Positions 1 through 21,290 of a stretch of DNA of 64,000 nt are shown here, piece by piece. The position numbers and the translations under genes were made by a program. The notes beneath the pieces are model-generated. The model was not told the DNA's origin and ran no database searches. It saw only the letters and a list, made by a program, of their open reading frames with translations. The DNA is from Trogon surrucura (lineage: Eukaryota; Chordata; Aves; Trogoniformes; Trogonidae): assembly GCA_020746105.1 (NCBI GenBank), contig CM036629.1:8893501-8957500 (forward strand), written 5' to 3'. Position 1 is the stretch's first letter. Every line of letters begins with the position of its first letter.

Positions 1-1247
1 ACGCAGCTGCCTTTGAAACTTTAGAACAACCAAAACGCCTGCTTTGGGGTAACTGGATGCAGCTCCAGTTCCTGTGGGAGCAGGGAATCCAAAGACAGTG
101 TTTTACAAACATCATTTGCAAAAAGCAGGAGAATAAGATACCACCAGGTTCCATCAGCCCAACCTCCATCTATGCTAACACAAACTTGCCAGTTTTCGGT
201 GCAAAAGGTATTCTGTCCGGAACAACTGAGCAACAAACAGCGTCGGTGGGCGAAAGTCTAAGTGAAGGTCTTACCTTTGCAGACACAAACAGCAGCCCTA
301 ATGTGAGGTCCCGTTTCTACACAGAAATAATCTTATTTTAAAACAAACTGAATGTCAGACCTGTCATATCAGTTCTGGTGTCATGACTCCTGCTCTTCAG
401 GTGGACGGGGAAAAAAGTTTTTTCCCCAAAAAATAGGCTTCAGAAACTTGTTAAGAGAGAATTATATGCCTGGGTCATGTCCCTGAACATTTGTTAGTGA
501 AAGATTTAAACTCATCTTCCATTTTAATGACATTATTTCGTATCTGCAAGTAATGCCACTCTTTGGAACAGCATTGTGGACTACAGTAACAAACTGTCTT
601 CTCTCCCTGTTACTATGGTTAAGCCTTTTAGTCACATCAGGTAAAGGATTTTTGGGTAATAATAATAATAAAAATTTAATATGCATCATGTTACAAGCAT
701 ATGAAGCTCTCCTTGGAGGAAATTTTCTTCTTGGGATCTAAATAGTTACAAATTCAAAATTAATACAGTCATTTTTGTTGTACTCTTAAAAGTTCCCTCC
801 CTCATTTCAAGGTCCCTCAGTCAAAGGAATTCATTTACATACATACATATACCCATACATAAATGCATACATATATACATATAGCCTTGAAAGGAGACCC
901 CTGCCCTGGGTGACCCTGCTCTGTCAGGGGAATAGGACTAGATCATCTCTAGAGCTCCCTTCCAACCCCCAACATTCTATGATTCCATATGTGTATATAT
1001 ATATATGAGTTTTGTAAAGACAAGCTTAGGAGCCCAAGAGATTAGAAGCTCCGATGAAAATCCTACCCTTACCCTCCCTTTCTGCCTTTGAACTACTCTT
1101 CAGGTAACAGGAGGAAGAAATAAGCGCAGAAAGATGCTCAGCTGTCAGGAGGCAAACGTGGCTGGATTATCTGGGCTTTAGATGATTTAGCTCTCAGAAA
1201 AACATGCAGAAAATCACGTCACCCCAAAACAATGCTTCTTTTTTCAG
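1..1247 (+). other. Intron upstream of the TRDC constant exon (J-C intron, partial)
   Basis: No coding exon is recognised here. The stretch precedes a strong acceptor (polypyrimidine tract and cag at 1245-1247), so it should be the intron that joins a TCR J segment to the constant region. I looked for a J segment (Phe-Gly-x-Gly motif preceded by a recombination signal) and found none; the Phe-Gly-Ala-Lys-Gly at about 197-211 lacks the signal. It holds a 21-bp near-palindrome at 407-427, a CATA/TA microsatellite at about 837-880 and 986-1006, and a CR1 3' end at about 880-988. Confidence 0.6.
880..988 (+). repeat. CR1 LINE 3' end fragment
   Basis: The stretch reads through a typical CR1 tail: 'ctagatcatctctagagctc', then 'ccttccaaccccc' and 'attctatgattcc'. 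Only the last ~100 bases of the element remain, in plus orientation, flanked by CATA and TA microsatellites. It is a marker of avian or reptilian DNA. Confidence 0.8.
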
Positions 1248-2874
1248 AAAGTCAAGAAGAATCTGCTGCAGAAGTCATCACGCTTAAATCAAAGGAACCC
1301 AAACGACATGACACCAAACTGAACGTGGCGTGTTTGGCAAGGACTTTCTACCCAAAGAACATCAGCCTTGAGGCATCCAGCGGTGACACTGTGTATGACC
1401 TGAAGGCACCCCTCGTCGCATCCGATGGGATGTACAGCAGCATAAAGGTCGTTGAGGTGGAACCAGATGCAGAGGTGACCTGCAAGGCTGTGCACGAGGG
1501 GAACAAGACCACAGCCAGCGTTGTTCTGCCAGGTAGAGTGCCGTGGTCCAAAGGCAACGTGATTCTGGGAGGTGTCTCTTCCAAGTTTTTTACTTGCCCT
1601 TTGAGAACCCAGTCAGAACAAGTAAGTGCGGTCAGAAAGATGTTTAGGTGCTTAGTTATGTGAAGATCAGATGCTCAAAACCAGCTAGCATGCATTATCT
1701 TAACTCAACTATTTAAGCACCTAGAGGTTTCTTCCCCCCTCAAAAAAAATCCAAACCAAACAAAAAAAAACCTACTCCTCTCCTCCCAAATGAATAAAAA
1801 ACCCCTCTAATATCTGCAAATCTACCTTTATCTATGTTCAAGGGAGAAGAGTATACATGCCTGCTGGGAGAAAGCTTGAAATAACTTTTATGAAAACACA
1901 AAATCAAAAAGGACATGTGATTTTTGTTTCCGCCCCCAAATATTCCGGTTATTTTTTGATCACTTTTTAAATTGTTCTTTTCCTATGGTAAAGTTCATTT
2001 TTAAAAGGGAGAGAAAATAAAACTCAACCATCCCGGGGGTTTTGTCTGCAATCACATTTAGAAAGCTTATTTTTCTCTCCCAGTTATCTTGGAACTAATG
2101 ACTTGCCATCTGATTCTCCAATATTGCTTTTCTGCTGCTGGGAAAAGAGACATAGGTGTGTTTTGTATAATTTATTGCTTTACATAGTTTGGATGCAATT
2201 TATAGTGTCTCTCAATCGTTCAACAGAAGAGAAAACTGAAGAATCAGAAACAAATAATGCCTGCAACGTTACAGGTGGCTCTACAAAAGGTTAGTTGCCT
2301 AAAGGAACAATAGGGTATGGTGACTTTATGGGGATTCAGTATTCATGAAAACGCATTATCTTTGGTACAGAAATGTCAGAACTCTTGATACTTATTAAGC
2401 AACAAGCTGCTCCTGTCCACAAAAGTGGACTCAATACTAAATCACGAGAAATTGCTTTCTCAGGTGCGGACATGTCAGAATTGGAAATTCTAATTGAGAA
2501 ATAACCTGCTGTTTCACGTGAACATGCTAAATATCTGACGAATTTCCATGGGCAGTGGGAAGTAAATTCCTCAATGGGCAGATGTCTCCACTCTTCCCTA
2601 CATTTGATGATTTCCTCTGTCATAATTTCCTTTGTTCCTTCTTCCCTTATCCACCTATGATGTACAGATTTTCCTTCTTTTCTTGGGGTGTGTGTGTGTG
2701 TGTGTGTGTGTATTGTAATATCAAGACCTCACTCCCTTCTCTCTTCTTTTTAAAGCAGATGTCAACATGGAGAAAGCGAATATGCTGTTCATGGCTGTTT
2801 TGGGTTTGAGAGTCTTGCTGGCAAAAAGCGTCGCCTTCAATACAGTCATGACCATCAAGCTGTTTCTCTTCTAA
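1248..2874 (+). CDS. TRDC: T-cell receptor delta chain constant region (TRDC), three coding exons
   Basis: Constant part of the TCR delta chain, which pairs with gamma at the T-cell surface and carries the CD3 complex. Exons are 1248-1532, 2227-2289 and 2759-2874; all junctions are GT-AG and phase 1, as in TCR and Ig genes, and the first exon opens with two bases so that a J segment supplies the first base of the codon. Exon 1 (95 codons) is a C1-type Ig domain with the two cysteines in VACLARTFYPKNIS and VTCKAVHEGNKTT; like mammalian TRDC it lacks a tryptophan between them. Exon 2 is a 21-residue hinge with the cysteine (ACNVTGG) expected to bond to the partner chain. Exon 3 encodes the membrane segment, with the delta signature LGLRVLLAKSVAF, whose Arg and Lys contact CD3, and ends almost at the membrane (KLFLF). 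N-glycosylation sites are NIS, NKT and NVT. Total length matches human TRDC (about 153 residues). No frame break, so it looks functional. Confidence 0.93.
2688..2712 (+). repeat. (TG)n microsatellite in TRDC intron 2
   Basis: An uninterrupted GT/TG run of about 24 bases ends 46 bases before the transmembrane exon of TRDC. It lies just before the polypyrimidine tract of that acceptor. Confidence 0.9.
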
Positions 2875-3960
2875 GGTAGGAAACACATCATTCAGTCCCT
2901 GGCAACACAGGAGGCATCACAAGGGGTGACCAGTTGCCTTTGCATCCTTCCGTGACCCCATCAAGAAAGACATCAGCTCAGCTGCTCCTGTTTCCACTGG
3001 AGAAGTTACTGGAACCTCCCCATTGCACCTCATCCCCAACCTGCTTTTGCATCGAGCTAGTCCAGTGTGTCTCAGGTTCTATCAGGAATCTTCTGCTGGT
3101 TGTTTCAAGTGGCAGAGCACAAAGTCTGGATGAATGTCCAGAGCAGCAAGAACTATAAAAGAGGAATCCCAGAAGCCAACAAATGTTAAACAGAGGGACA
3201 GAAAAAGGAGGATGGGGAATAAGAACTTAAAACAAACACTGTCTTCTCTTACAGGTACTGTAGAAGTGAGCCAGCAGTGGGCTGAGGAAGACTGGGAAAG
3301 AGCACACAGCAAGATAATTTAAGCACCGTGGGTCAACTTTGCTACCAATAAGCATTTAAAGCATCAACAACCTCCCCAGTTCCTGACGATCTATGAGTCC
3401 CTGTATTTCAAGGTGCTTTTCAGTTAACACCATTTGGAAGCCTTCTTAGACAGCTAATACTGCTGAACTCTCATCTAGCTTAGTTTTATTAATTGTTAGA
3501 ATGAGTTTTGTTATTTCTTATTTCCCTAAGACACTTCCCTCATCCCTTGCTGTGTAGGAACAGTCAGCTCTCCTATTCCTGTATCCATTGGGCTGCAGCA
3601 TTCATATTGCTGAGAGAGTTTTGAAAATGTAAAACCTGAACTTTACACTTACTATGCTTCAAAAATACCGTCTCTAGCCATATTACATTATTGTCTACCG
3701 AGGTAATGCTTCCCTGCTTAGGGATCCCCAGCACAAAGGGAGCGTTGTATAGTTTTAATTTTTAGAAGCTTTTATTAGTGGCAATTCTCTAGTGCCAGTA
3801 ACTAGATCTCCACTGGACCTCCACTTTGGGCACGCGTGCAGTAGTATTTTGATTTTCATCTCATCTTTAAAATATTTTTTCTTTTGCTAAGTATATGGTA
3901 CCTGCATTTTAGGTTTCCTTCATATACACCAGAATAAAGTTTTATTATGTTTGGGTTTAT
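2875..3960 (+). other. TRDC: TRDC 3' untranslated region, with a 3'UTR intron and poly(A) signal
   Basis: The stop codon at 2872-2874 is followed at once by a donor (AAG|GTAGGA at 2877). A good acceptor (ctcttacag) ends at 3254. This reproduces mammalian TRDC, where the fourth exon is wholly untranslated. The last exon would run from 3255 to just past the poly(A) signal AATAAA at 3933-3938. The donor lies within a few bases of the stop, so the stop should not trigger nonsense-mediated decay. Confidence 0.75.
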
Positions 3961-4337
3961 GATGTTCGGTTTGTTCTTTCTTCTGAAAGTGGGATGGAAG
4001 TTGTTGAAATTCCACTGTCCAACCCAGTGACCACTGAGAACCAGAAATTTACCTATTACAGCCTAGATTTCCTTTTCATTAAATTTGTCTTTCTTGGGCT
4101 TTCCCTGGGGAAAGAGAGAGTCTCCCTGGCAAATTTGTGGAGTTCAGAAGAATTTAAGTTGTTCGTGCCACTTTCAGATTACTCAGGCTCAAAATTGCGG
4201 ATCCCAACAAAAAGAGAAGTGACCCTAAAGAGAAAAGAGTTAAGACAAGGGGCAATATGAGCATTAATGTGCAGAGCTCAGAAGGTGAAAGGATGGGCTG
4301 TTGATTTTCCACTCACCAACACGAAGAAGGGGCCAAC
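3961..4337 (+). other. Spacer between TRDC and the next candidate gene
   Basis: About 380 bases separate the TRDC poly(A) region from the first candidate exon downstream. An open stretch of 88 codons (3994-4260) has no recognisable domain and no splice context, and I do not annotate it. No inverted V segment and no TRAJ-like motif with a recombination signal was seen. Confidence 0.5.
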
Positions 4338-6522
4338 ATGAATATCCAGCTGCCTGGCTGGGTGCTTGGGCAGACTCTCAGGGAGATGGCGTGAGTACGT
4401 CCTGTTTTCAGTTCCTTTGAGCACTGCCAGCTCAAAGCCCAAATGCGAGCGAGGCCTCTGTCATGGTTGTGAGAACAGAGACCTGCATCACGTGTGCCAT
4501 GTTGTTCCTTGATCCCCTCCTACGTTCTGTCATCCAGTGATGACAGTGTGCATCATGGCAGTGCAGAACGGAAACCTCTCATGGGTGTTTGGTTGCAGGT
4601 GTGGAGCCAGGAAGGGCTTTTGCAGCTTCTCAGCTGGATCCTGCACCAGAGCTCACCTGGCATCCCAGATGTGAGTACTCCATCTCTGGACTGAGTTCAC
4701 AGAGTAGCACTTGTATCCACTGTTTTCTTTGGCATAATCTAACATTATGCTTTCTGCGAACGTGCTCAAAGAGTAAAGTATGGAGTTGGAAGAGGCAAAT
4801 CTTCCCAGTGAACATCAGGAATCCTCAAGCAGATCCTGAGGGATCTGGAGAATGCCGGAGACGGTGGGTGCTCCTCACTCTTAACCGGAAGCCCTGGGAA
4901 GCAGAGGTTTTAGGTGCCTGTATGGACAAGCCAGAGCCCACACGGCAGCAAGGGACCGATCTGAGGCTCCCTGTGATGACAGTTTTGTGCCTGGCAGGCA
5001 CTGTCGAGCTGCAGAGATGGTCCAGAGCCTCTGCTGCCAGTTCTGGTTCAAGCTGAATCCCAGGGACGGTGGCTGCCCCAATTACAGCAGTCCTGGTCAG
5101 AGCTGTCCTGGGCAGACGTCGATATCCATCTGGCAGGAACCGGGGGCGCTCACCCCTTGAGTGCGCGGGCAGCTTGGGGTCTCTGAGAGCGGCAGGCTGT
5201 GCCCAGGCTGCAGGCATGCCCTGGACGGGATCAGAGCAGCCCCAGTTTCACAGCCTGGTCCAGCCCTACCATTCTCCTCCATGTTGGAGCACTTTTAGTG
5301 ACACCTTGGGGTCAGGGCCAGCTGACAGCTGGACACGCTGCTTGAGGCCGCACACCTCACTTGAAGGCAGCTCAAATGAAGGGCGGTGAATTCAGTCTTG
5401 GGTCGCTCGGCTGCCTGTTTCTGGTTGTGTTTTAGACCGCTTGGCTCATTTTGGGGGGTGGTGTGAATGTCCTGTGTTCCTGATGATGAAAGGATATTTG
5501 AAATTCAAGTGGCTCCCTTGCTTCCTAAAGGAGTGGACCATGAGACTATGGAGAACAAGGCGCTTCAGGAAGGAGACAGCCAGGCGGTGCCAGCCCCTGA
5601 CCACAAGCTAAGGGCAATTCAATCCTCAGGCATGCCAGGTAATTACCATCCCTTGGCCGTCCAGGAAGCCCCCACCCTGGTACCTACAGATTTCTTCAAA
5701 AGAGTCCAGGTGCTGAGCAGTCTCTCAGGGGGCCAGAAGCAGGAGACACGTGCTGAAAATGGGGGCATGCAAGCAGTGCCCATGCTGGAGAAAAGGCCAA
5801 GCTGCAGAGTGAGGTTCAGAGACCTCCCTAGAGGCCTGAGCCCATCCCCTTGGGGTGTGGGTGCTGGGCTGAGGAGGCAGAGCTGGGAGCGGCGCTCACG
5901 GAGGAGTTTTCTCTGTCTCCCTTGCACGGGCAATTGGTCACAGAGCCGGGCTCCCCCACATGCTCTCCATCTGGCCTCAGCAGTTCTGTGCAGTGGGACA
6001 ACTTGCCCCGAAGGGTCAGAGAGAGCCTCCGGGCAGCAGCATTAGCAAGCCTTGGAAAGGGAAGGTGGGCGAGTGCAGAAGAAATAGTGCACTAATGGGA
6101 AGGATCCCCAGGCAGGGGGAGCAAACCCACGACCCTGGGAAAACTGGATTACAGCCACCCCAGAGTGTAAGGAAAGCTGAGAGGAGAAGGAGAGGCTTCA
6201 GAGTGCATTGCTTTGCAGCAGCGTTTCCCCAGAAAGCAAGGAAATGCTGCGATCCCAGGGTGTTCAGTCCTCCAGAGATGCTGACCAAGGGAGAAAGAAC
6301 TTTTTCTGGCACAGCCAGGCCTCCTGTGTGATGTCCTGTAGTGTGCAGGAATCACTGACATGCAGCATTCTTCCTCCAGGTGTGGGTGGCAGGAGAAACA
6401 GGAACAGTCCTGGAAGTTTCAAGATCTCATGCACTGAAGGTGTCTTGGCAGTCTTGGGCTCCGCGTTCTATGGATCGGTGTTCTTCTGCTTGCTCTACCT
6501 GTTCCTGGGGAAAATAAAATAA
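4338..6522 (+). CDS. Unrecognised small single-pass membrane protein, candidate four-exon model
   Basis: I do not recognise this protein. Four candidate exons (4338-4390, 4599-4670, 5493-5638, 6380-6522) have GT-AG borders and join with matching phases (2, 2, 1) into 137 residues with no stop. The best supported piece is the last exon: acceptor cttcctccag, a cysteine (SFKISCTEG), a hydrophobic helix of about 22 residues (VLAVLGSAFYGSVFFCLLYL) and a five-residue basic tail. The predicted N-terminus has no signal peptide, so it could be tail-anchored, or the true 5' exons could differ. The acceptor of exon 3 is weak. It lies between TRDC and an FSIP2-like gene, in the same direction. It might be an immune membrane protein or a testis gene; the sequence does not decide. 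The open frame that continues past 5638 to 6045 is probably intron read-through. Confidence 0.35.
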
Positions 6523-6523
6523 A
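6513..6523 (+). terminator. Overlapping poly(A) signals that contain the stop codon
   Basis: AATAAA occurs at 6513-6518 and again at 6518-6523. The stop codon TAA of the membrane-exon reading frame is at 6520-6522, inside the second signal. If used, the 3' untranslated region would be only 15-30 bases. Confidence 0.55.
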
Positions 6524-6544
6524 GAGTTGAGGGAAGGGGGATGT

Positions 6545-7385
6545 TGCCAAACCCTGCTGTTAGATGGCTGCTCTTAGCCATGAAGTGTTCAGAGGTGGGG
6601 TATTCTGGAATGCTGAGTTAGCTCCTGGCCAAGCTCTAGCGGGATTTCTGCTGTAGGATGTTTGAGCTGGCCATTCTTTTCTGACACCTGTTCTCACTGT
6701 TGCAAGTATTAGTTCAAAGTGACCCTGACATGACAAAAGCAGATCCAGCCCTACCTGCAGCCAGCCTGGGCTCTCCAAAGAGCTGAGATCCTGTAGGGAT
6801 GCAACGGAAGACTGATGAGGAGGACTGTACGTACACTCAAGCGATGGGCAGCTGAGGTGTTGGAAAACACACCCATCATGCTGGGTCACTGCTTGGCCTC
6901 ATGTGCTCGACCAGCCGCAATCAGGGGGCCTGAAGGGCTGGAGATGTCGTGGGAAACTGGCTGCGATGGAGAGAGAGCCTGAGGGAGTTGAGTCCTTGAC
7001 CGGATCCACTGCCCACAGCCCCCGGCACAGAGAAGCTGTTGATGGCGGAAGGCCTGCCAGGAGGCAGAGGGAAAAGATTTTCTGCACCACATGTCCCTCG
7101 TGCCCTCCTGTGTCCCCCAGAGGGGCTCGGCCTGCCCCTTGAGGCGCCCGCTCTCGGCCACCTGCAGCTGCATCTCTCTGCCTTCTCCCTGCAGGTGGGC
7201 ACAGGGTTACACCAGAGGCTCCCCGAGAGGGTCTGGGTTAGGCCAGGCTCTGGTTCCTGCTGCTGGGCAACATTTAGGGTGTCCCTGGAAGCAAACGTGG
7301 GAAACTCCCCTCCCTTTGTCGGGGGTTAGAGGTCCCGTCTGCCTCCGGCACCCCTCCTGGGCAGCTGCCGGGCGGCGGCACGGCA
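6545..7385 (+). other. Intergenic spacer upstream of the FSIP2-like promoter
   Basis: GC-rich spacer. Open frames occur on both strands but overlap each other and have no domain or splice context; they look like composition effects. No repeat family was recognised. Confidence 0.5.
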
Positions 7386-7463
7386 GCCCATGACGTCACA
7401 GTGCAGTAGCCCATGACGTCACAATGTGGCACTGTGATGACGCACGAGGCGCTGGCTATATAG
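7385..7463 (+). promoter_or_regulatory. Promoter with two perfect CREs, a CRE-like half site and a TATA box
   Basis: Two copies of the full cAMP response element TGACGTCA lie at 7391-7398 and 7414-7421, inside a 19-base unit that is repeated 23 bases apart (agcccatgacgtcaca). A related TGACGCA is at 7438-7444. A TATA element (TATATAG) is at 7457-7463, which predicts transcription start near 7485-7495. A TATA box close to CREs is the usual design of promoters driven by CREM-tau in round spermatids, which suits the sperm-tail gene that follows. Confidence 0.8.
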
Positions 7464-7485
7464 AGAGCGCCGGGCGGCAGAGCAG

Positions 7486-7817
7486 TGGCATTTGGCCACA
7501 GCTGGGTGCCTCTGGCTGGAGAGCAGCTGGTGCGAGGTCGAAGCTCCAGAAGTGCTCTGAGAGGAGCGGTGGAGCACCATCTCAGTGCCAGCATCCGCGA
7601 GGCAGACGCACTGCTGAGTGCGCTGGGCAAGGGCCGAGAGGTGAGCCACCAGGCGACAGGGAGGGCTCAGCCGGGGCTGCTCGGGGCCTGTTCGCGGTTG
7701 TGCCCTGCTGTGCTTCTGCCGTCCGTGCGCCAGGCTCCTGGAACTCGCGCCTAAGCGTCTCTCTCTTCCCAGCTTGGGCACAGAAGACAGCACCCGGGAG
7801 AAGGAGCTGCTGGGCTG
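7486..7817 (+). other. 5' untranslated region of the FSIP2-like gene
   Basis: Exon 1 runs from the start site predicted by the TATA box to the donor at 7641 (GAG|GTGAGC). It has no ATG. The acceptor tcttcccag ends at 7772 and exon 2 carries 45 more untranslated bases before the ATG at 7818. The exon 1 frame is open and in phase with exon 2, so an upstream non-AUG start is conceivable, but the ATG at 7818 sits just before the conserved FSIP2 N-terminal block. Confidence 0.65.
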
Positions 7818-10800
7818 ATGGACCCGGAGCTGCTGGACCTCCCACTGGGAGTGAAGATCCCGGTGCTGCCCAGCTCCAAGCCTGTCTTCAGCAGGGCAAA
7901 GCTGGGGGAAAAGGTAAGGGTTGGAAAAGCTCTCTGCTTTGATGGGAGGAGTCCCGGTCGTTCAGAGAAGGCCTTGTGGCCACCTGCTTGACAGCAGCGG
8001 GAGCCGCAGCCCTTCAGTCGGGCCGTGCTGGGCAGCTGAGAGCAGCTCCTGCCTCCCCGGGGCTGAGAGAAGCACGGGAGGACTTGCCTGGAGCAGTGCT
8101 CCAGGCTGGGCAGAGCCAGATGGAGAAGGCTGGAACTGCTAGCGCGTGTTGGCCTGAAGAGCTGGGGTGGCCATTGGTTCCTGCTGCTCTGTGCTGCCCC
8201 GTTGGTAGCCCAGCCCATCTCTCTTGCAGCTTCACCGGTCCTCAGGCTACTTTAACCTGGGAGACCCCTACTGCCGCCTCCTGCGCACCGAATACAACAG
8301 CCTGCACGACCCGTATCTGCAGAATTACCACCTGCGCCAGGACAACCTCCGGAGGCTGAGGAGAGAGGGTTACGTCACCAATGACGGCAATGTAGGTTGG
8401 GACGTCCCCGAGCGAGTGAGGAGGGAGCGTGTGCTCGGGAGCAGCTGCCCTCCTGCCAGGTTCGGGCTGCTTCAGGCTGCCTCGTTGCCTCGGTGGCAGT
8501 GCTTAACTGATTTCTCCCGTTGTCTCTGCACAGGTGGTTTGCACACTGAAGGAATTCAACGAATACAGGCAGTACCTGACCACGCTCAAGCTGGAGGCAG
8601 AGAAAAGGGCCAGGCGAGAAGAGGTGGGCGAAGTGTGGAGGAGGGAGGGGGCTGTGCTGGTGGGATGGGTGTTGTGGTGGGGAATGACCGCCTGGGTGAC
8701 TGCGAGCTGAACTCACTCCTGGGCTGGGCGCAGGCACGAAGGGAATGCACAAGCCCACGGAGCCCCGAGGGAATCCCTTCTCTGCTGCCTTCGTGCGGGG
8801 CTGTTAGCTGACTGTTGGGCTGGGCATGCGGGAAGCCTCAGGTTGCCAGGGCTTGAGGGCTCATCAGGGCCACAGCCAGCCACAACCTGGTGTCTTCTTT
8901 TTTTCAGGAAAGGCACCATCAACGCCCGGCCAAGGTCAAGGATGCTGCCAAAGTGCTGGCACCCATCAGTGCTTCTGGTCTGGCGGAGCGGCTGCGGCAG
9001 CAGCCTCAAAAACGCTCCTGCCCACCTCCAGCCAAGGGCCAAAAGTCGGTGCAACACAGAAGGCTTCGAGTAGCTTTGGACCAAGGCCAAAGCTACTCCC
9101 AGGTGGAATTGGGGCAGCAAGGTGACAAGGTGCCCAGGAGGAGGGTCACTGGCTGCGAGGGGAAGCCGGACGTCGCAGCTCTAACGGCAGAGAAAAGGGC
9201 CAGGCGAGAAGAGGTGGGCAAAGCGCGGAGGAGGGAGGGAGCTGTGCTGGTGGGATGAGTGTTGTGGCGGGAGATGACCGGCTGGGTGGCTGCGAGCTGA
9301 ACTCACTCGTGGGCTGGGCGCAGGCACAAAGGGGATGCACAAGCCCACGGAGCCCCGAGGGAATCCCTTCTCTCCTGCCTTCGTGCGGGGCTGTTAGCTG
9401 ACTGTTGGGCTGGGCACGCGGGAAGCCTCAGGTTGCCAGGGCTTGAGGGCTCATCAGGGCCACAGCCAGCCACAACCTGGTGTCTTCTTTTTTTCAGGAA
9501 AGGCACCGTCAACGCCCGGCCAAGGTCAAGGATGCTGCCAAAGTGTTGGCACCCGTCAGCACTTCTGGCCTGGTGGAGCGGCAGCTGCTGCAGCCCCAGA
9601 AACCCTCCTGCCCACCTCCAGCCAAGGACCAACAGTCGGTGCGACGCAGAAGATTGCGAGCAGCTTTGGACCAAGGCCAAAGTTGCTCCCAAGCAGAATT
9701 AGGGCAGGAAGGTGCCAAGGTGCCTGGAAGGAGGGTCGTCGGTGATGATGACTGCAAGACGGAGGCAGCCGTCACTGCAGACATCACGTTCAGAGGTGCC
9801 GCTGAACAAGTGACTGCAGGGGAAGCCCAGAAGCTCGCGGAGGTGGCTGAGGCTGTGGTGGAGGAGGTGCTGCAGAGGGTGGGGGCTCGTGGGGCTCAGT
9901 TGGCCTACGTTTTAAGGAGGGCTGCCCTGGGCATCAGAGCAAGCTGCTGTGCCAGCGCCCAAAGAGAAGAGCCTTTGGATAAGTCTCCTCCAGATCGGCG
10001 GCAGGAAATTGGCCTGATGGCCAAGGAACTTGTAGCCACTGTGTTGGAGATGTTGGGAAAGCACATGGCCTCCAGCACAGCTGAGCCAGGGCTGCCAGGC
10101 AGGCAGAAGGAGCAGTCTGTAGCCGGAGGAGACACCCGAGTCCACAAAGTCAACAAGGAGAAATGGGAGCAAACTGCAACAGCAGCTCCTGCCAGAGCAG
10201 CATCACTGCCCGCCCTTGACAAACTCATCAAAGAAGTCATCGGGAGTGTTTGCTGCACCTTAGAACACTTTGTGGCTTCTCAGCTCCACCCAGCCTCCAG
10301 CTGCGAGTATGTGGAAATCCTGGAGCTTCCCCAGGGAAACCAGCGGAGAGTGGGAGCCAGCACAGGCAAAAAGTTGCCTGTGGCATTGCAGCCACAGCCA
10401 AAGGCAAGCGCTGCCGACACCTTGCGACTGAGTCGCAGAATTGCCGGGGAGAGCATCGAAAATGTGGTCTCCCGAGTCGAGCAGCACGCCGCAGAGCAGG
10501 CTGGGTGTTGCCAAAGCGTTGCCCTTCCTGAGCTGCTTGGAATGGAGCGGAAGCAGCCAGGGGACGAAATGACGCCAAAGCCAAGAGCCTTGTCCAACGT
10601 TTTGTGTATCAGGAGCATGGCAAGACGGATCGTTGCCTCTGTGCTGGAGTGGATCTCTCGACCTGGGCCTGCACCGACCCCCAGACTTGGAAGACGTGTG
10701 GCAGAGGCGTCATCCACAGCAGCAGCTGGAGAGCAGAGCTGTCCCGCTGCTGAGGAACCCTCTCCCTCCGTGGGCCCACAGTGTTCCAGGCAGCCCGTGC

Positions 10801-10886
10801 CTCCGACGGGTCCAAAGCCCCCTGCCCAGACAGGAGCGCCGCGCAGAGCCCTGCGCATAACGCTTGTCCCACGCAAGCCCCGGTAG
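7818..10886 (+). CDS. FSIP2L: FSIP2-like protein (fibrous sheath-interacting protein 2-like), short form
   Basis: FSIP2 is a very large scaffold of the sperm-tail fibrous sheath that binds AKAP4. Coding exons: 7818-7913, 8230-8391, 8534-8623, 8908-9213, 9498-10886, all phase 0 with GT-AG borders, giving 680 residues. The first 116 follow the conserved FSIP2 N-terminus: LLDLPLGVKIPVLPSSKP, then FNLGDPYCRLLRTEYNSLHD, then GYVTNDGNVVCTLKEFNEYR. Human FSIP2 is about ten times longer, so nearly all of its repeat region is missing. The last exon holds five short amphipathic helices of related pattern (for example LVATVLEMLGKHM, IVASVLEWISR). The fourth coding exon is a duplicate of the start of the fifth. 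The Lys/Arg/Ala-rich linkers look disordered. The CRE/TATA promoter suggests spermatid expression. The symbol marks similarity only; it is a paralogue or a shortened orthologue. No frame break. Confidence 0.88.
8597..9776 (+). repeat. 590-bp tandem duplication inside the FSIP2-like gene
   Basis: Two copies of a 590-base unit lie head to tail (about 8597-9186 and 9187-9776). Each contains the 3' end of an exon coding for EKRARREE, its GTGGGC donor, the intron, the acceptor (ttcttttttcag) and the start of the next coding exon (ERH.QRPAKVKDAAKVLAP). The intron copies are close to identical; the exon parts differ more. The length is not a multiple of three, but frame is kept because both joints fall at phase-0 introns. 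Confidence 0.9.
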
Positions 10887-11019
10887 CCCACAAAGAGGAC
10901 GTCATCAGTCCAGAGGCTTGTGGGGGCTGTGCTGAGGAGCGGCTGTGTGGCATGAGAAGTGGAGAGCCCTGCGCAGCTCCAGCAGGCAGCCTGCACGCAC
11001 CTGACACCCCTGTGCTGGC

Positions 11020-11025
11020 AATAAA
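11020..11025 (+). terminator. Poly(A) signal of the FSIP2-like gene
   Basis: AATAAA lies 134 bases after the stop codon at 10884-10886, followed by a GT-rich stretch (cgtctgcttgtgcctgc). This fits a short 3' untranslated region. Confidence 0.75.
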
Positions 11026-11039
11026 GGGTTTCCTGGCAA

Positions 11040-11715
11040 GCGTCTGCTTGTGCCTGCTTTCCTTCACACCAGGCCCAGGCTGTGGGGGCCTGTCCCCTGA
11101 GGCCATGTGTCTCTTCTTCCCTCCTGCAGCCCCTGTCACTCACACTGAGACCCCATTGTACAGGGGATCTTCACTCGGGAGGCCAGAAGCAGCCAGCCTC
11201 GCTGTCTGCTCTAGCAAGCTGTGCTGCAGCGCTGGTGGAGGGAGGGAGGGCTCCAGCTCTAGGATCTCCGGGGAAGTTGTTTTGCTCCGGGAAGGCCTTC
11301 ATCATGCTTCAAGCCAACTGGGACAAAACCCCACATATTCTCCAGCTCACTCCTCTCTCCACCTCCATTTGCACAGTGATGTGGAGGGAGACAATTCAAC
11401 CAAACAGGCTTTGAGATGAAGGACAGGGAAGGTAATAATCTACTATTTAAGATGATGGATAAAGAACCAGAGAGACTTGGGGAGATGGACATGGATTCAA
11501 TTCACCACCACCATTTACGAAGGATAGAGGAATAAATACAACCCGATCTTAAATACACTCTGCCCCCGATACCTCCCATCTTCCTGGCTCTCTCCCCCCA
11601 CCATGCTCATCGGTGCAAGGGGGGCAGGGGGTGTGGGATGCAGCCCATCTGGCCATTTCTCATTGTCCGTGGCAGCTTCTCCTTGAGAAAGAGGGCTCCT
11701 TGCAGTCTCTCCTTC
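11040..11715 (+). other. Spacer without recognised genes
   Basis: No recognisable exon. Open frames up to 212 codons begin inside the FSIP2-like last exon on another frame or on the opposite strand and have no domain. I see no repeat family before the CR1 scrap at about 11720. Confidence 0.45.
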
Positions 11716-11719
11716 GTGC

Positions 11720-11793
11720 CACATGATGGGGTCCATCAAGGGTCGGTACTGGGACCAGCACTGTTCAATATATTCATCAACAGCCTGGGTGGC
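11720..11793 (+). repeat. CR1 reverse-transcriptase fragment
   Basis: A short stretch translates to GVHQGSVLGPALFNIFINSL, the CR1 reverse-transcriptase block just upstream of the catalytic Ala-Asp-Asp. Only about 25 codons remain, with no flanking CR1 sequence recognised. Confidence 0.75.
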
Positions 11794-12061
11794 AGCTTCA
11801 GCGGGCACGGTAGTGAGGAGTCAGTGTGGGCAGCGAGTGCTGCGTGCCGAGCATGCCATGCTCGCCCCGCATCTCCCTGGGCACTGACGCAGTGCGTGCA
11901 TAAGAGGAGTCCGGCCTCGTAGTCGGGCTCTGCTCAGCATGGCTTTGGCTGCTGGATCTTGGCAGCTCATTGCTGGGCCTTGCCCGCTGCTCTGCACGTC
12001 CCCAGACTGTCCTTGTCGCCTTGGCTGTCCGGTGGCTCTGTGGGATGAACTCGGAAAGAGA

Positions 12062-12587
12062 AAAGGAGAAGAGAGGAGAGGAGAGGAGAGGAGAGGAGAG
12101 GAGAGGAGAGGAGAGGAGAGGAGAGGAGAGGAGAGGAGAGGAGAGGAGAGGAGAGGAGAGGAGAGGAGAGGAGAGGAGAGGAGAGGAGAGGAGAGGAGAG
12201 GAGAGGAGAGGAGAGGAGAGGAGAGGAGAGGAGAGGAGAGGAGAGGAGAGGAGAGGAGAGAGAGAGGAGGGGAGAGGGAGAGGGAGAGGGAGAGGGAGAG
12301 GGAGAGGGAGAGGGAGAGGGAGAGGGAGAGGGAGAGGGAGAGGGAGAGGGAGAGGGAGAGGGAGAGGGAGAGGGAGAGGGAGAGGGAGAGGGAGAGGGAG
12401 AGGGAGAGGGAGAGGGAGAGGAGAGGAGAGGAGAGGAGAGGAGAGGAGAGGAGAGGAGAGGAGAGGAGAGGAGAGGAGAGGAGAGGAGAGGAGAGGAGAG
12501 GAGAGGAGAGGAGAGGAGAGGAGAGGAGAGGAGAGGAGAGGAGAGGAGAGGAGAGGAGAGGAGAGGAGAGGAGAGGAGAGGAGAGGG
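12062..12587 (+). repeat. Compound purine-only array: (GAGAG)n, (GGAGAG)n, (GAGAG)n
   Basis: About 525 bases contain only A and G on the plus strand. A pentamer block (about 12069-12268) is followed by a hexamer block (about 12275-12419) and a second pentamer block (12420-12587). Long open frames in all frames of this tract (Arg-Gly-Glu-Glu-Arg repeats, or Leu-Ser on the other strand) are artefacts of the repeat. Such tracts can form triplex (H-DNA) and vary in length. Confidence 0.97.
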
Positions 12588-12589
12588 TG

Positions 12590-13695
12590 AATTCCCTCCC
12601 TGCCCTCAGCTCTGGTCGCACCCTCGGCCTCTGCCCTGAGCAGCCATCACCACCGAGCTGGTGGCAGTGGCCTGGTGGCCAGGGAGCTTTCCCTGCCAAG
12701 ACCAGTTAAATTCAACTGATCTGCCGGGGCCACAGCAGCCCAGGTCCTGACCTGAATGGGGAGGGCACACCCCAAAACCGTGGAGCTAAGTCTAATGGGG
12801 CTGAGCTGGAGGGGCTGGCCCAGGGAAGGGCGCTGCAGGCACCACGTGTGCTGCGAGGTCTCGGCATTGGCTTGGCCCTGAAAAGCATCCGATGGGAGCA
12901 GTGGGTTGAGCTGCCCTGAACCGTGGGCAGCTGAGAGGTGGGTTTAGGCCTGGAAACGAGGGCTTGGGCCTGAAAACGAGGGTTTGGGCATGAGAAGGAG
13001 TTTTGGGCACGGGAAGAGCAGGCTGGGTGCTACAAATGGCACTCAGGGCCCTGAGAGCGAGGGGAAGCTCTTGGTGCCACCCTGAGCTGGTGCTGGTGCC
13101 CGGGAACTCCTGGCAGCAGCGACCTGCCCTGTCCTGCAGGACTGCCTGTCCCCTGAGGCAGGAGACCCCCTGGGCACAGCACCCACCTCGAGGAGGGAGG
13201 AGGCTCGTGGTCCCCTTCATTCCCAGCAGCGCTACACCCGATCAATTTTGGGGGAGACAGGAGTTACAGGGGTGTAAAACACTCCTGCGATCTGAGCGCG
13301 GCTGGGGAAGCCCCCGGGGTCCTTACCCAACTCCTACACAGCAGCCTGCTTCGCAGCCAGCTCCTCCTGCAAGGTGGCTACTCGCTCTTCCAGCAGAGAA
13401 GCTCCTGAAGCAGCACAAAACCTCGAGTAATTAAACAGCTCCTCAGAAAAGCTAAACCAAGGCGGCAGTGAACAGCCACGCTGTTGGAGATGAAACGTGT
13501 TCACTACAGAATGATAGAATTAATTGTGTGATTGCTTAAAATTAGAAAGAGTTGAAACTCATTTTATGAGTGACATCTATTGAAGCTTGAGGCTACAGAG
13601 TGTGGACTTGCAGAGAAATACTGCTGAGCTTGGGCTGGAGAAAGTTCAGCACAAATTAGAAAGAGAAGACAGCCCCATCTGTCAACACAAAGTAC
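12590..13695 (+). other. Spacer between the purine array and the SINE
   Basis: Low-copy, moderately GC-rich sequence. At 12948-13012 a short run of imperfect repeats of 'gggcctggaaacgaggg' type occurs. From about 13435 the sequence becomes AT-rich. No gene was recognised. Confidence 0.45.
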
Positions 13696-13698
13696 ATA

Positions 13699-13901
13699 AT
13701 AGAATCATAGAATCATAGAATCATAGAATGGCCTGGGCTGGAAGGGACCTTAGAGATCATTTTAATCCAGCCTCCCTGTTGTGGGTACGGACGCCACCTC
13801 TCGACTAGGTCAGGCAACACATGAGAACCGAACGGGAATCGAACCCGCGACCTTCGGTGTTTCAAACACCAACGCTCAACCCACTGAGCTAAACCGGCAT
13901 C
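13699..13901 (-). mobile_element. tRNA-Ile-like SINE with a CR1-type tail (TguSINE1-like)
   Basis: Read on the minus strand, a head at about 13901-13826 matches tRNA-Ile: a box A (TTTAGCTCAGTGGGTTGAGC) and box B (GGTTCGATTCC) flank a changed anticodon arm. A body of about 60 bases follows, then a CR1 3' end (TCTAAGGTCCCTTCCAGCCC) and four ATTCTATG-type repeats at 13730-13699. The tail should let CR1 reverse transcriptase copy it. The acceptor-stem halves no longer pair, so it is not a working tRNA gene. I know this architecture from zebra finch TguSINE1, so a songbird or relative is likely. Confidence 0.8.
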
Positions 13902-14223
13902 CACCAGATAAGAAAAGGAGGCCCCCCTGGTGACGGAGAGAGGATGTGATGAGGAGCAAGAAGATCCCACACCCAAACAGCACTATTGGACAGGTCATGC
14001 AAGGGGAGGCGAACTCAGACAAGGAGGGGGCGGTGCAAGAGCGTGGGCAGCCAGCTCCCCCCATCTGGGCTTAGTCTCACGGTGGGGAACAGCCCTGATC
14101 CCTGCCAAAATCAGGGGGCAAAGCCCCGTTCGTGGTGGTGGGACCGAGATTTGAGCATGGACTCTGTGTTTTCCCAGCAAATATCCCCAGGCCTGGGAAG
14201 GGGTGTTTGGAGCAGCGCTGTAC
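13902..14223 (+). other. Spacer where the 3' half of CCDC157 would be expected
   Basis: The last recognised CCDC157 exon ends with a good donor at 14223 (minus strand). No coiled-coil exon is seen between here and the SINE, or further down to the FSIP2-like poly(A) site. Confidence 0.5.
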
Positions 14224-16760
14224 CTCTCTGTAGGTCATCCTTGTCCTGCTCCAGCCTGGCTACAGCCTCTAAATGCTCCTTGGTCTTTGCTGCTAGGCTT
14301 ACTCAGCCTCTTTCCTCTGTCTCGCTTGGGCCTCCTTCTCTGCCTGAAGCAGCTGGGGGAAGCCCTTATCTTGTCTGCGCAGTTCGCTGTTCTCTTTCTG
14401 CAACTTCTCCAGCTGAGACTTCAGAGGGTCGATGATCTTCAGCATCATGCGGAGACATTTGTCCATGCACAAGAGGTCTCTGCTCTGCTTTGAGGCCCAG
14501 AAGGCCATGTCCCTTGCAGAGAGGGGACCTTGCCCTGGGGTCCTGTCCATCAGCTTCTGGAAGTTGCTGAGAGCCGAGGGGATGTTCTGGCTCTGGCAGA
14601 TTCTGACGATGGCTTTGCTGACCTGGCGGAGGATGGTCTGGGTGATGTCGCAGGTGTCGCAGGCTCCTGGAGGTGGCACAGTTGGCTGTGTGAGGACGCT
14701 GCGGCCGCTCTCAGTGGTTCAGGTTGTCAGAGGTGACAGTCGCCTTCATGGGGACGCTGAGGCTGCTCTTGGTGGCACAGGCTCCCTCAGGTGACATAGT
14801 CGCCTTCATGGGGATACTGCGACTGCTCTCAGTGGCACAGGCTCCCTCAGGTGACCCAGCTGCCGTCATGGGGACGCTGCAGCCGCTCTCAGTGTTTGTG
14901 TGGGCAGCCTTGGGCAGGGAGCTGCCTGAGATGTTGCCCTTTGGCATGTGGACGTGCAGTGACAAGCCGAGAGAGGTTAAACTGGGAATATCTATGGATA
15001 AAGTTCTTAGTTTTAAAGCATCCAGAGAGAAGAGTTTTGGCCACTTCAGATTTTGCAGACTGGAGAAGAGATGGCACTGCAATGGGCTGTTTTCTGCAAG
15101 CTGCTGCCTTTTGCTAGAGAGAGCACAGAACAAAACCGGGGCCCAGATCAGGCAGGAGTCGACTGCAAATGATCCAGCAGAGCCCAGAGACAGAGGTGTG
15201 AGTCATGAGGACAGGCCATCAGCCCAGGCAAGGGGTGACAAGGGCAGCTTGTCCTTCTCTTGGCAGAAGTTCCCAGAGCATGGTGTTTTTATCACAGATT
15301 ATTTCCCTGATTGGAGCCCGCTCAGCCTCACCAACAGTGGGGTGGGCAGAGCTACAGGGGCAGGTGTTAGAAGGAGGAGAATGTTTTTCCAAGAGATCAA
15401 TGCAGCCAAGCTCGCCCGTCCTGAGGTCCCGGCACAGGCCGGGAGAAGCATGGGTCCAGCAGCATGTCTGGGAGAGGCAGGTGGAGGAGGGAAGGGGCTC
15501 AGGTCAGGAGGGGACAGTGTGAGACAAATGTGTCCTGTCTGACACAGGAGTCAGCACTCAGAGGGTTGTGACCCAGGAGCACGTCTGGTGTGGGTACTGC
15601 CTGTGTCACGGGATGTCCCCAAGAAGGACCTTGACCCCAGCACAGCCCAAAATCATGGGGGTGGGACAAGGCCCATTCCCATAGCACCTGTACTCAGCTC
15701 GTGGGGTGTTGGGGCCCCCAAATGCTCCACCTTGGCCAGGAGCTGCTGGTAGGAGGCCCCCAGTTTCAGCACGCTGCAGCAGGATGTCTTGGCTGTCAGC
15801 CCTGTGGACATGCGGGGTCCCACTGGCTGCGCTGGGGGGATGGCTCGCTCGCTGAGCAGGTTTTCTGCGTAGCTGGTGAAGTTCTGGAGCAGCAGCAGCA
15901 GCCTTTTTGTAAAGAAACAAAACAGAGCTCAGATCAGCAGAGTATTTGTAATGCGAAAGGGGTGCATTTGGCACAGGAGGGTGGGTATCAGTGCTCCTGT
16001 GACCCCCCCCCCCCAGGGCTGAATGGCTCCACGGAGCACTATCTGGTGGGATGCAAATCCCCCTGCAATCTGCAGGACGCGGGCTGTGGACCCTGCTGGC
16101 AGCCAGCCACATTTCCTTTGAAATGGAGGCACATTTATTTAACCCAGGTTGCAAAAGGCACTTCTGCCTTGCAAGCCTGTAGATGCAGCCCTCTCCGAGT
16201 GTTTCCAAGGTTTTGGGGGTCAATTTAAGGAGGCTGCCCCCAGGTGCCCTGTGCGGCTCCTCTGTTCCTCTGTGGGCAGCATCTGGCCGGTAGCTCTGAG
16301 CTCTGAGCTCTGTGCCGGGAGAGGAGCTGGGCTTTTACACTCGCAGTGCAGAGCTGCGGAGCGTGAGGCGGAGGTGCCGGCACAGCGCTCCTCGGCAAAC
16401 GTGTAGGAAAAAAGAACCCAGAGCCGCTGCACGGACTGCCCTCCTGTGCGGGGAGAAGAAGCTGCTGTGCCAGCCCAGCTTCTCGGAAGAGGGCGCTTGG
16501 GGCTGGCTGTGCCCGTCTATCAGCAGCTCCAGCAGCATCACGTGCGAGCGCTGGGCGGACTCAGGGTCGCTCTCGGTGTAGCTGTACCGCTCCAGCAGCT
16601 CCGCCAGCTCCAGGTCGCAGGACAGCTGGTTCGGGAACTTCCACGAGGGGAAGTGCACAGCCCCGACCCTGGAGGAGACCTCGGCGATGGCCGCCTGCAG
16701 GTCGCTCAGGTCGGCCCACAGGCTCTCCATGCCGCGGGGGAGGCCCGAGAGCTGGGCCAT
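14224..16760 (-). pseudogene. CCDC157: CCDC157-like gene, 5' part, disrupted
   Basis: CCDC157 is a coiled-coil protein important in sperm formation. Exon 1 (16760-16513) encodes 82 residues close to human CCDC157: MESLWADLSDLQAAIAEV, then VHFPSWKFPNQLSCDLELAE. Exon 2 (15902 to about 15688) continues in phase with LLLLLQNFTSYAENLLSERA and IPPAQPVGPRMSTGLTAK. A later exon (to 14303) has the CDTC block (ACDTCDITQTILRQVSKAIV) and the start of the coiled coil. Signs of decay: the exon 1 donor reads GCACAG instead of GT; the segment before the CDTC block (14720-15130) is in a different frame and holds tandem repeats; a TAA at 14300-14302 interrupts the coiled coil, which resumes in another frame (KEHLEAVARLEQDKDDLQ, to 14224); and no further exons follow, although the human protein is about 750 residues. 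Introns are kept, so it is not a retrocopy. Assembly errors could explain single-base breaks, less easily the missing half. Confidence 0.7.
14725..14895 (-). repeat. About 60-bp tandem repeats inside the CCDC157-like gene
   Basis: Three near copies (14732-14791, 14792-14852, 14853 onward) share 'cttcatggggacgctg', 'gctctcagtggcacaggc' and 'tccctcaggtgac'. Translated on the minus strand they read SVPMTAAGSPEGACATES, SIPMKATMSPEGACATKS and SVPMKATVTSD. One unit is two bases shorter than its neighbour at the join (gtgacagtcgcc against gtgacatagtcgcc), which shifts the frame relative to the CDTC exon. Confidence 0.75.
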
Positions 16761-17650
16761 GCTGACCCGGGCGGCGGGACCCGGCCCGTGGGCTGCAAGG
16801 GTCCTCTCGGGCCGCAAGGGCTGGGGGACAGCCCCGGGGGGCGGGGGGCTGGAGGGGGACCGGCACCGCAGCACCGGCGCTGGGGGACCCCAGGAGGGGC
16901 GGGGGGGCTTCTTAAGTGCCGAGGGACCGAGGGGTCCCGGGGAAGGATGCGCAGGGTCGGGCCGGAGCCCGCGGGGGGTCGCTGAGAGGAAACCACCACC
17001 GGTCGCGTCCCTGCCGCCGCGTCCAGTTGCCGAGGCAACGGCTCGGGCCACGCCCCTTCGCGGAGGCCACGCCCCCTCCCGCGCGCCTGTTCGCTCCGCC
17101 TCGCGCTGCTCCTCCCGCAGCGCCCGGCTCCGCCCCCGCCCCCCCCCCACCGAGCGCTGCCCGGGGTGCTGCCCGCCGCGCGCGCGCTCTTCCCCTCTCC
17201 TCCGGCGCGGCCGCTGCCGGCTCGAGGCCGACGCCCTCCCGAGGCCGCCGCGCGTCGCTTCCGCTTCCGGCGCGCTCTTCCGGCACGGCAGCACCCGGCC
17301 AGGGATCGGCCGCGGCGGGGAAGCTCCAACCGCGGCCCGGGCAGCGCCGTGCCCGCCGGAGCCGAGCCAGCCGTGCCGCCGGCGCAGCCCGCGCCGCCCG
17401 CCCAGAGCGAACCGGTGCGGGGAGGGGGGGGGGGGTGTGTTGTTCCGCCGTCGAGGCCCGGGCCGGGCCGAGGCGCGGGGCCTGTCCCTGGCGCCCCCCG
17501 GGACCCGCCGGGCGGGCCGGGTGCTGTGGGGCTGGGGGCGGTTTCCCCGCGCTGTCCGCCCGCGGGACTGCAGGAGCCGCTTCGGGCCCGGGGCTGCCGC
17601 GGCGCTGCCGGGTTCCCACCCCCAGCAAAGCAGCGCAGGGGCTGTCACAC
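16560..17650. promoter_or_regulatory. CpG island, likely bidirectional promoter
   Basis: About 1.1 kb of very GC-rich, CpG-dense DNA covers the first CCDC157 exon (minus strand) and extends to the start of a possible plus-strand unit at 17653. It has no TATA box at either side. Long open frames here on both strands (up to 444 codons) follow from lack of stop codons in GC-rich DNA. In mammals CCDC157 is head-to-head with SF3A1; I do not find an SF3A1 first exon here. Confidence 0.65.
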
Positions 17651-20800: not shown

Positions 20801-21290
20801 AATTCACAAGATTGTTTGATCTTACTACTACTTTCCTCCCCCACAAGCACCGACATATTACATACTGGCTCCTTTTCAGTGATTTCGCTTTTACTCCCAC
20901 CCCCTTTCATACCTAGTCTAAAGCTCTGCCTACTTCCATTAGATCCAGCTACCAACCCCTCCCCCTTCATATCTAGTTTAAAGAACGCTCTATGAGTCCT
21001 GCCAGCTCATAACCAAGGATCCTTTTTCCCCTTTGTGTCATTTGAACCCCATCTGGTTTCAGTAGACCAGGTGCCCTGTAGATCTCCCCATGGTTAAAAA
21101 ACCCAAAGCTAGACCGCTGGCACCACCCCTTTAGCCAAGTATTAATCTGCTGCACTTTGTCAAACCTACCGCTATTTTTCCTCGTAATTGAAGGAATACG
21201 GGCAAACACAACCTGTGCGCCTGATCCTTTTAGCATCATCCCCAGTGCCCTAAAGTCCCTTTTGATTGCTTCTGATAGTGATTCCATGCT
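17844..21290 (-). mobile_element. CR1 LINE, 5'-truncated, inactive
   Basis: Minus strand, from the 3' tail at 17844 (tcatagaatcagagaatcct, reversed) back to the end of ORF1. 21287-20973 encodes the C-terminal ORF1 part (LKPDGVQMTQRGKRILGYEL), in CR1 a nucleic-acid-binding/esterase-type protein. 20970-20110 is the apurinic-like endonuclease of ORF2 (TNARSVGNKQEE; VLMGDFNFPDICWKYN). Reverse transcriptase follows in pieces: 20135-19713, 19703-19026 ([39 protein letters not shown]), 19069-18278 ([11 protein letters not shown]) and the C-terminus 18317-17937. Breaks: one in-frame stop near 19710 and frameshifts near 20120, 19050 and 18300. An in-frame deletion of about eight codons removes part of the block after GVPQG (about 18780-18790). 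Confidence 0.95.

Follow-up and report, generated by a model that had tools for sequence, protein, structure and literature searches.

A second T-cell receptor delta locus with an antibody-like variable segment in Trogon surrucura, probably no longer or barely productive

Among T-cell receptors, a second delta locus that uses an antibody-like V segment is a rare design. A second TRD locus of the chicken was reportedly described by Parra et al. in 2012, and Liang et al. are said to have surveyed avian TCR constant segments in 2023. According to the cited sections of the chicken annotation, the second locus lies on chromosome 10 and has the same design as the locus presented here, and its VH-delta segment is classed as an ORF with a weak recombination signal sequence (RSS) (PMC10972964). 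For the duck, the cited passages report rearranged TCR-delta-2 transcripts, with 13 productive clones, and one of these passages credits the zebra finch with a second delta locus (PMC5278385). Second delta loci are also mentioned for Galliformes and for some birds in the cited parts of two papers from 2025 (PMC12698447 and PMC11754216, respectively).

We analyzed a 64,000-nucleotide stretch of DNA, hereafter the window (C16:8893501-8957500), in a genome assembly of 1.166 Gb and 164 contigs; window positions correspond to C16 coordinates minus 8893500. As claimed in a preliminary description of this stretch, it contains an intact TCR delta constant gene (TRDC2, window 1248-2875), whose three exons are all open and spliceable. 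On the plus strand, exon 1 (1248..1532) encodes an extracellular C1-set domain with both Cys residues, exon 2 (2227..2289) a connecting peptide with one Cys, which is inferred to form the interchain bond, and exon 3 (2759..2875) a membrane-spanning segment that contains Arg and Lys (LGLRVLLAKSVAFNTVMTIKLFLF); the stop codon of exon 3 lies a single base upstream of the donor site. The Cys pair, the connecting-peptide Cys and the transmembrane Arg and Lys of a C-delta gene are therefore all present. The 3΄ part of the J-C intron occupies positions 1..1247 of the same strand, and a putative untranslated exon 4 (3255..3938, plus strand) extends from an AG acceptor to an AATAAA located by eye at about 3933. 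The frame past the TRDC2 stop runs open into exon 4 for approximately 20 further codons (window 3255-3320).

Exon 1 was matched by the Pfam C1-set model (PF07654; 25.3 bits, cut-off 21). When it was compared with the PDB, ubiquitin chains occupied the first three of the best 60 of 896 matches, their ranks being sums of many stretches of approximately 4 bits, and TCR delta chains came next. A search of the genome with the exon 1 protein (E up to 10) yielded three matches: the exon itself, C26:6445743 (45% identical) and a fragment at C8:27209526 (87% identical over residues 67-96). A second TRDC, for which the preliminary description suggested looking elsewhere in the assembly, is present as the ordinary gene on C26, in addition to the C8 fragment.

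With regard to the other features of the window, the FSIP2-like and CCDC157-like labels given to neighboring frames are tentative, although the former agrees with the FSIP2 N-terminus. Pfam returned no match for three window frames or for the joined FSIP2-like N-terminus; the CCDC157-like frame matched PV-1 alone, with a score under the cut-off. A long simple repeat with GE/EER and GRGRG-type frames (window about 11970-12600) adjoins the FSIP2-like frames, and reverse-transcriptase- and endonuclease-like frames, seen by eye at window 17937-21006 on the minus strand, presumably belong to a CR1-type LINE, judging from their motifs. Elsewhere in the genome, a contig of 26.7 kb (C112; matches L001 and L003-L006) carries five C1-set exons in both orientations, of which L001 appears by eye to be MHC class II beta-like. 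The B2M of this genome, on C14, was closest in the PDB to 7zqi, the great reed warbler chain (PMC10360169, PMC12583234), with 145.9 bits and only 61 of 94 residues identical; three duck entries at about 135 bits (58 of 93 identical for one sequence), chimeras of B2M with MHC chains and chicken entries at 123 bits followed. For alpha-A globin, artificial tandem human chains had the highest summed scores, and the best bird entries were those of the pigeon (2r80/3mju/3dhr, 262 bits), above a group at 252-254 bits that includes goose, duck and quail, and above the parrot entry 2zfb (236 bits). Both proteins lean toward Neoaves. Contig C1 bears beta-type globins at 0.35 Mb and additional globin exons at 163 and 167 Mb; if the latter encode myoglobin, the division of chromosome 1 known from songbirds would be missing here. 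The songbird origin considered in the preliminary description received no support, and the bird is probably a neoavian other than a songbird.

We added the 200 kb to the left of the window, giving a total of 264 kb with no N in either part, and searched for V, D and J segments with 12/23 signals, including a VH-like V, as the preliminary description had advised. One VH-delta with a leader, one D and one J, arranged in this order and sharing the strand of TRDC2, were found in the 6 kb that precede it; together with C-delta, the whole locus spans about 8.6 kb. The leader exon (C16:8888880-8888925, with donor and acceptor, and a second possible ATG at 8888853) and the VH-delta exon (C16:8889053 to 8889366 or 8889368) are open and in frame (MFFWMLVINLAAAVTG-IHSPIKMVASGPKEGK...TYFCARQ), and the leader peptide is signal-like. 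The V exon is followed by a weak V-RSS (C16:8889367 or 8889369 to 8889407). The D comprises 12 bases (C16:8890532-8890543), flanked by a 12-RSS on its 5΄ side and a 23-RSS on its 3΄ side, and the J (C16:8892778-8892846) has a 5΄ 12-RSS and a GTAAGT donor; all of these elements lie on the plus strand. A motif search of the 264 kb detected exactly one V-type frame (C16:8889127-8889358). The Pfam V-set model matched this segment with 39.8 bits (cut-off 26), and the best 60 of its 7606 PDB matches were, by molecule name, antibody heavy chains or antibody-derived constructs. We also ranked all RSS candidates on both strands of the 264 kb, using exact 12 or 23 spacers and a 16-point score. The top three were both D signals (15/16 each) and the J signal (14/16), and the next six scored 13. 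The V signal before GCAAAAACG can be read as CACTGGG with a 23 spacer (12/16) or as CACACTG with a 25 spacer (13/16). The layout, with a putative 23-RSS on V, 12- and 23-RSS on D and a 12-RSS on J, would allow RAG-mediated V-D-J joining under the 12/23 rule. The joined V-D-J, spliced to C-delta, would then yield a delta chain whose V domain resembles that of an antibody; by analogy with its family, this chain would pair with TCR gamma.

The ordinary TRDC and the TRAC match are both on C26, where TRAC follows TRDC at a distance of 101.6 kb on the same strand. The interval C26:6426001-6446000 contains two related V-like exons (6426452 and 6435329), one V (6431222), one VH-like V (6432187), a D with a 12-RSS (6440755) and two J segments with the motifs FGSG and FGKG, the signals of both of which are weak (11/16). 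Based on this content of TRDC, TRAC, V, D and J, we took C26 to carry the TRA/TRD locus, from which the locus of the window is separate, in agreement with the earlier proposal of a second, separate delta locus with an antibody-like VH. VH-delta segments inside TRA/TRD are described in the cited parts of three sources (PMC12529555, PMC12698447, PMC5278385). Here too, such a segment is present (C26:6432187, 41% identical to the C16 VH-delta), and it is part of the ordinary TRA/TRD locus and not of the window locus.

The earlier claim that neither a TRAJ array nor TRAC accompanies the window gene also held. We scanned for J segments with an RSS of at least 10/16 points, the motif [FW]GxGT and a splice donor, and detected none on either strand of the window and none in the 200 kb to its left, whereas both C26 J segments were recovered from 20 kb of C26 as a control. 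The single TRAC match in the genome (PF09291, seven candidates scored) was located at C26:6547341 (22.9 bits, cut-off 22.1, E 0.08). The nesting of TRDC before TRAJ and TRAC is thus not seen at the window locus.

We compared the cassette with the 20 kb of C26 and the downstream stretch by blastn and obtained 11 rows. Five of these were colinear in C16 and C26, corresponding to the V (82% of 51 columns, E 4e-8), the D 5΄ flank and RSS (71% of 100, E 8e-5), the J (77% of 56, E 3e-4), the intron preceding C (77% of 48, E 0.001) and exon 1 of C including its acceptor (69% of 195, E 1e-14). The remaining six, all from C16:8889542-8890335, matched scattered places and were taken for dispersed repeats. 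The end of the J-C intron was 64% identical between C16 and its TRA/TRD counterpart on C26 over 261 columns (E 2e-17, against 0.07 for the best of the reversed controls), and 176 of the 285 columns of the whole exon 1 were identical to the C26 TRDC (61.8%). An enhancer-motif scan of the two J-C introns revealed no RUNX site common to both. On these sequence grounds, the colinear similarity shows the window locus to be an old duplicate of the 3΄ VH-delta-D-J-C cassette of TRA/TRD, which would have originated in an ancient duplication.

A genome search with the C16 V (150 of 155 candidates scored) gave at least 135 matches. The C26 VH-delta was the nearest among the scored matches (41%, E 4e-18). 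At least 128 matches were located on C45 and C46, which probably represent the IGH locus (mostly 36-44% identical, with a best E of 2e-12), and at least five further matches on C26 were 33-35% identical. On C45 and C46, which are two short contigs, the VH-like matches (e.g. L058-L063) are packed in both orientations, and C46 also bears seven C1-set matches. V-domain trees were built from eight rows, and then from seven rows after leaving out C26_V_6431222 because of its long branch; three of six IGHV loci were included (L059, L061 and L063), and the others (L058, L060 and L062) were missed by the motif. In both trees, the two VH-delta segments were not resolved as sisters relative to the IGHV clade, and their kinship therefore rests on the pairwise score and colinearity.

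The duck TCR-delta-2 locus, as described in the cited passages (PMC5278385), resembles the window locus in being a single VH-delta-D-J-C cluster with a 12/23 layout, and the exon 1 identity between the ordinary TRDC and the second C-delta is also close (59.5% in the duck and 61.8% here). However, the duck locus extends over about 16 kb, compared with about 8.6 kb here, and the duck C-delta-2 has a cytoplasmic tail of 62 residues, whereas the window chain stops right after the transmembrane segment. In view of the duck tail and of the open frame past the TRDC2 stop, this stop may be a derived truncation. The second locus of the chicken, in the cited sections, shares with the window locus its position apart from TRA/TRD, its single VH-delta, D, J and C, and its weak V RSS. 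No leader exon was found in the chicken annotation as cited (PMC10972964), in contrast to the leader exon with a signal-like peptide at the window locus. Unlike the chicken locus as described in those sections, the window locus has a broken J frame, coexists with a VH-delta in the TRA/TRD locus of the same genome and apparently, by its marker genes, lies on a different chromosome.

Concerning this placement, CBFB was located on C16 (3/3 matches) and PKM on C14 (6/6 matches), beside B2M, which is also on C14. In the chicken, CBFB is on chromosome 11, and B2M and PKM are on chromosome 10. Since the chicken locus lies on chromosome 10, the window locus, on C16 with CBFB, seems to be on a different chromosome than in the chicken. 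This would mean that the locus either moved once or was duplicated twice. In the latter case, the VH-delta cassette would have been duplicated independently in this lineage and would not be orthologous to the chromosome 10 locus of the chicken, an alternative that is compatible with either functional reading of the locus and that we regard as rather unlikely but worth keeping in mind. It would fit the presence of CBFB on C16 and of B2M and PKM, both genes of chicken chromosome 10, on C14. However, the exon 1 identity to the ordinary TRDC (61.8%) is near that in the duck (59.5%), so that the split appears to be about equally old. The V start, PIKMVAS, likewise resembles the chicken TRDVH1 motif QIEMVTT in the cited annotation (PMC10972964). 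As for the old duplicate of the TRA/TRD cassette itself, it is quite conceivable, although we would not go so far as to call it probable, that the second delta locus is older than the Galloanserae/Neoaves split, moved chromosome in one lineage and is now dying in this neoavian bird, while VH-delta survives in TRA/TRD.

This locus may already have been published for other Neoaves, possibly in the survey of Liang et al. (2023). The preliminary description had suggested that a separate delta locus, if found in a songbird, would be new or little described; the separate locus is real, but the same design is known in the chicken and duck, and the zebra finch is credited with such a locus in the cited duck passage (PMC5278385), and its novelty is thus lower than suggested. 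As far as can be judged from the sequence, what differs here is the probably neoavian host, the apparently different chromosome, the presence of VH-delta in both delta loci and the signs of decay.

The most evident of these signs concerns the J segment. In the frame leading into C, it reads ENLE-stop-QQTSSSYGTGIIFSVEP, with the motif YGTG and, in the assembly, a TAG at J nucleotides 15-17; the adjacent frame gives GVATDKLV, which corresponds to TDKLIFGSG of the first J on C26. As the blastn row aligned 56 bases with 55, the C16 J carries a single additional base between TDKLV and FGTG (~C16:8892814), which, in comparison with the intact C26 J segments, puts TDKLV and (F/Y)GTG in different frames. 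The J of the locus is thus not open in the frame of FGxG. A motif search for other J segments near the locus (C16:8880000-8896000) returned the broken J and two unconvincing frames with weak RSS, and a stricter scan of the whole 264 kb yielded no intact J, both C26 J segments being found as a control. The lesion could be an assembly error or confined to one allele, and rare productive joins are possible because the trimming of at least 15 bases of J removes the TAG.

We further considered a second copy of part of the constant gene. The stretch at window 1451..4050 (C16:8894951-8897550, plus strand) is copied at C8:27209532-27212211 in two pieces (92.3 and 92.4%). This C8 stretch (L011 and L055) is a truncated TRDC2 copy running from the end of exon 1 to the 3΄ UTR, with the break inside exon 1 and with exons 2 and 3 remaining open. 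When the copies on C16 and C8 were compared (window 1451-3058), 86 of 1321 noncoding positions (6.5%) and 19 of 262 coding positions differed, and 16 of the coding differences were non-synonymous and 3 synonymous (dN 0.079, compared with 0.065 for noncoding positions). Neither a frameshift nor a premature stop was observed in the coding parts of either copy in this interval. We assigned half of the change to each copy and let only C8 drift freely, a test that assumes equal branches and has little power. The expected number of non-synonymous changes was 8.6 at an omega of 0.3 and 9.9 at an omega of 0.5, against the 16 observed, and the probability of at least 16 such changes was 0.015, 0.044, 0.10 and 0.25 at omega values of 0.3, 0.5, 0.7 and 1, respectively. 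These sequence comparisons favor weak or no constraint on the C16 copy.

Gene order, orientation, the RSS, the separate TRA/TRD locus, the open state of the V and C exons and, in the assembly, the lesion of J were observed directly, and we are nearly certain that the locus is a real second delta locus of known design. Given this identity, a loss of function appears likely from the sequence, as the extra J base, the in-frame TAG and the weak V signal would together leave the locus probably non-productive or barely so. The reading that we consider probable as a whole is that the window covers the constant-gene end of a self-contained second locus of the TCR-delta-2 type, an old duplicate of the TRA/TRD cassette, which is probably no longer, or barely, productive.

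It is unlikely, but deserves serious consideration, that the second delta locus is instead fully functional, with the J tolerated through trimming or the extra base being an assembly error or a minority allele, and that VH-delta-2 chains would be produced in the thymus as in the duck. The open leader, V and C exons and the D and J signals, which are close to the consensus, suggest that the locus is or was recently in use. Moreover, a weak RSS need not mean loss, since the C26 J signals score only 11/16, the RSS of the chicken VH-delta is weak as well, and in the duck TCR-delta-2 undergoes rearrangement and transcription, with 13 productive clones reported in the cited passages (PMC5278385). 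However, the extra J base with the in-frame TAG, the weak V RSS and the comparison of C16 with C8, which gave no sign of constraint, argue against a fully functional locus. The alternative named in the preliminary description, a constant gene that is orphaned or translocated and lacks V, D and J, was rejected, and it is most improbable, as is an assembly join error; although C alone is visible inside the window, the whole VH-delta-D-J cassette with its RSS precedes it directly, correctly ordered and oriented, no N occurs in the 264 kb and the cassette is colinear with C26.

A locus that probably lies outside Galloanserae, apparently on another chromosome and in a genome that also carries a VH-delta in TRA/TRD, bears on the timing of the duplication and on its possible loss; as V, D and C are open and the one J is broken, such a loss is directly testable. 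If the second delta locus is indeed an old duplicate of the TRA/TRD cassette that is no longer or barely productive, it would represent a natural case of an antibody-like T-cell receptor being lost.
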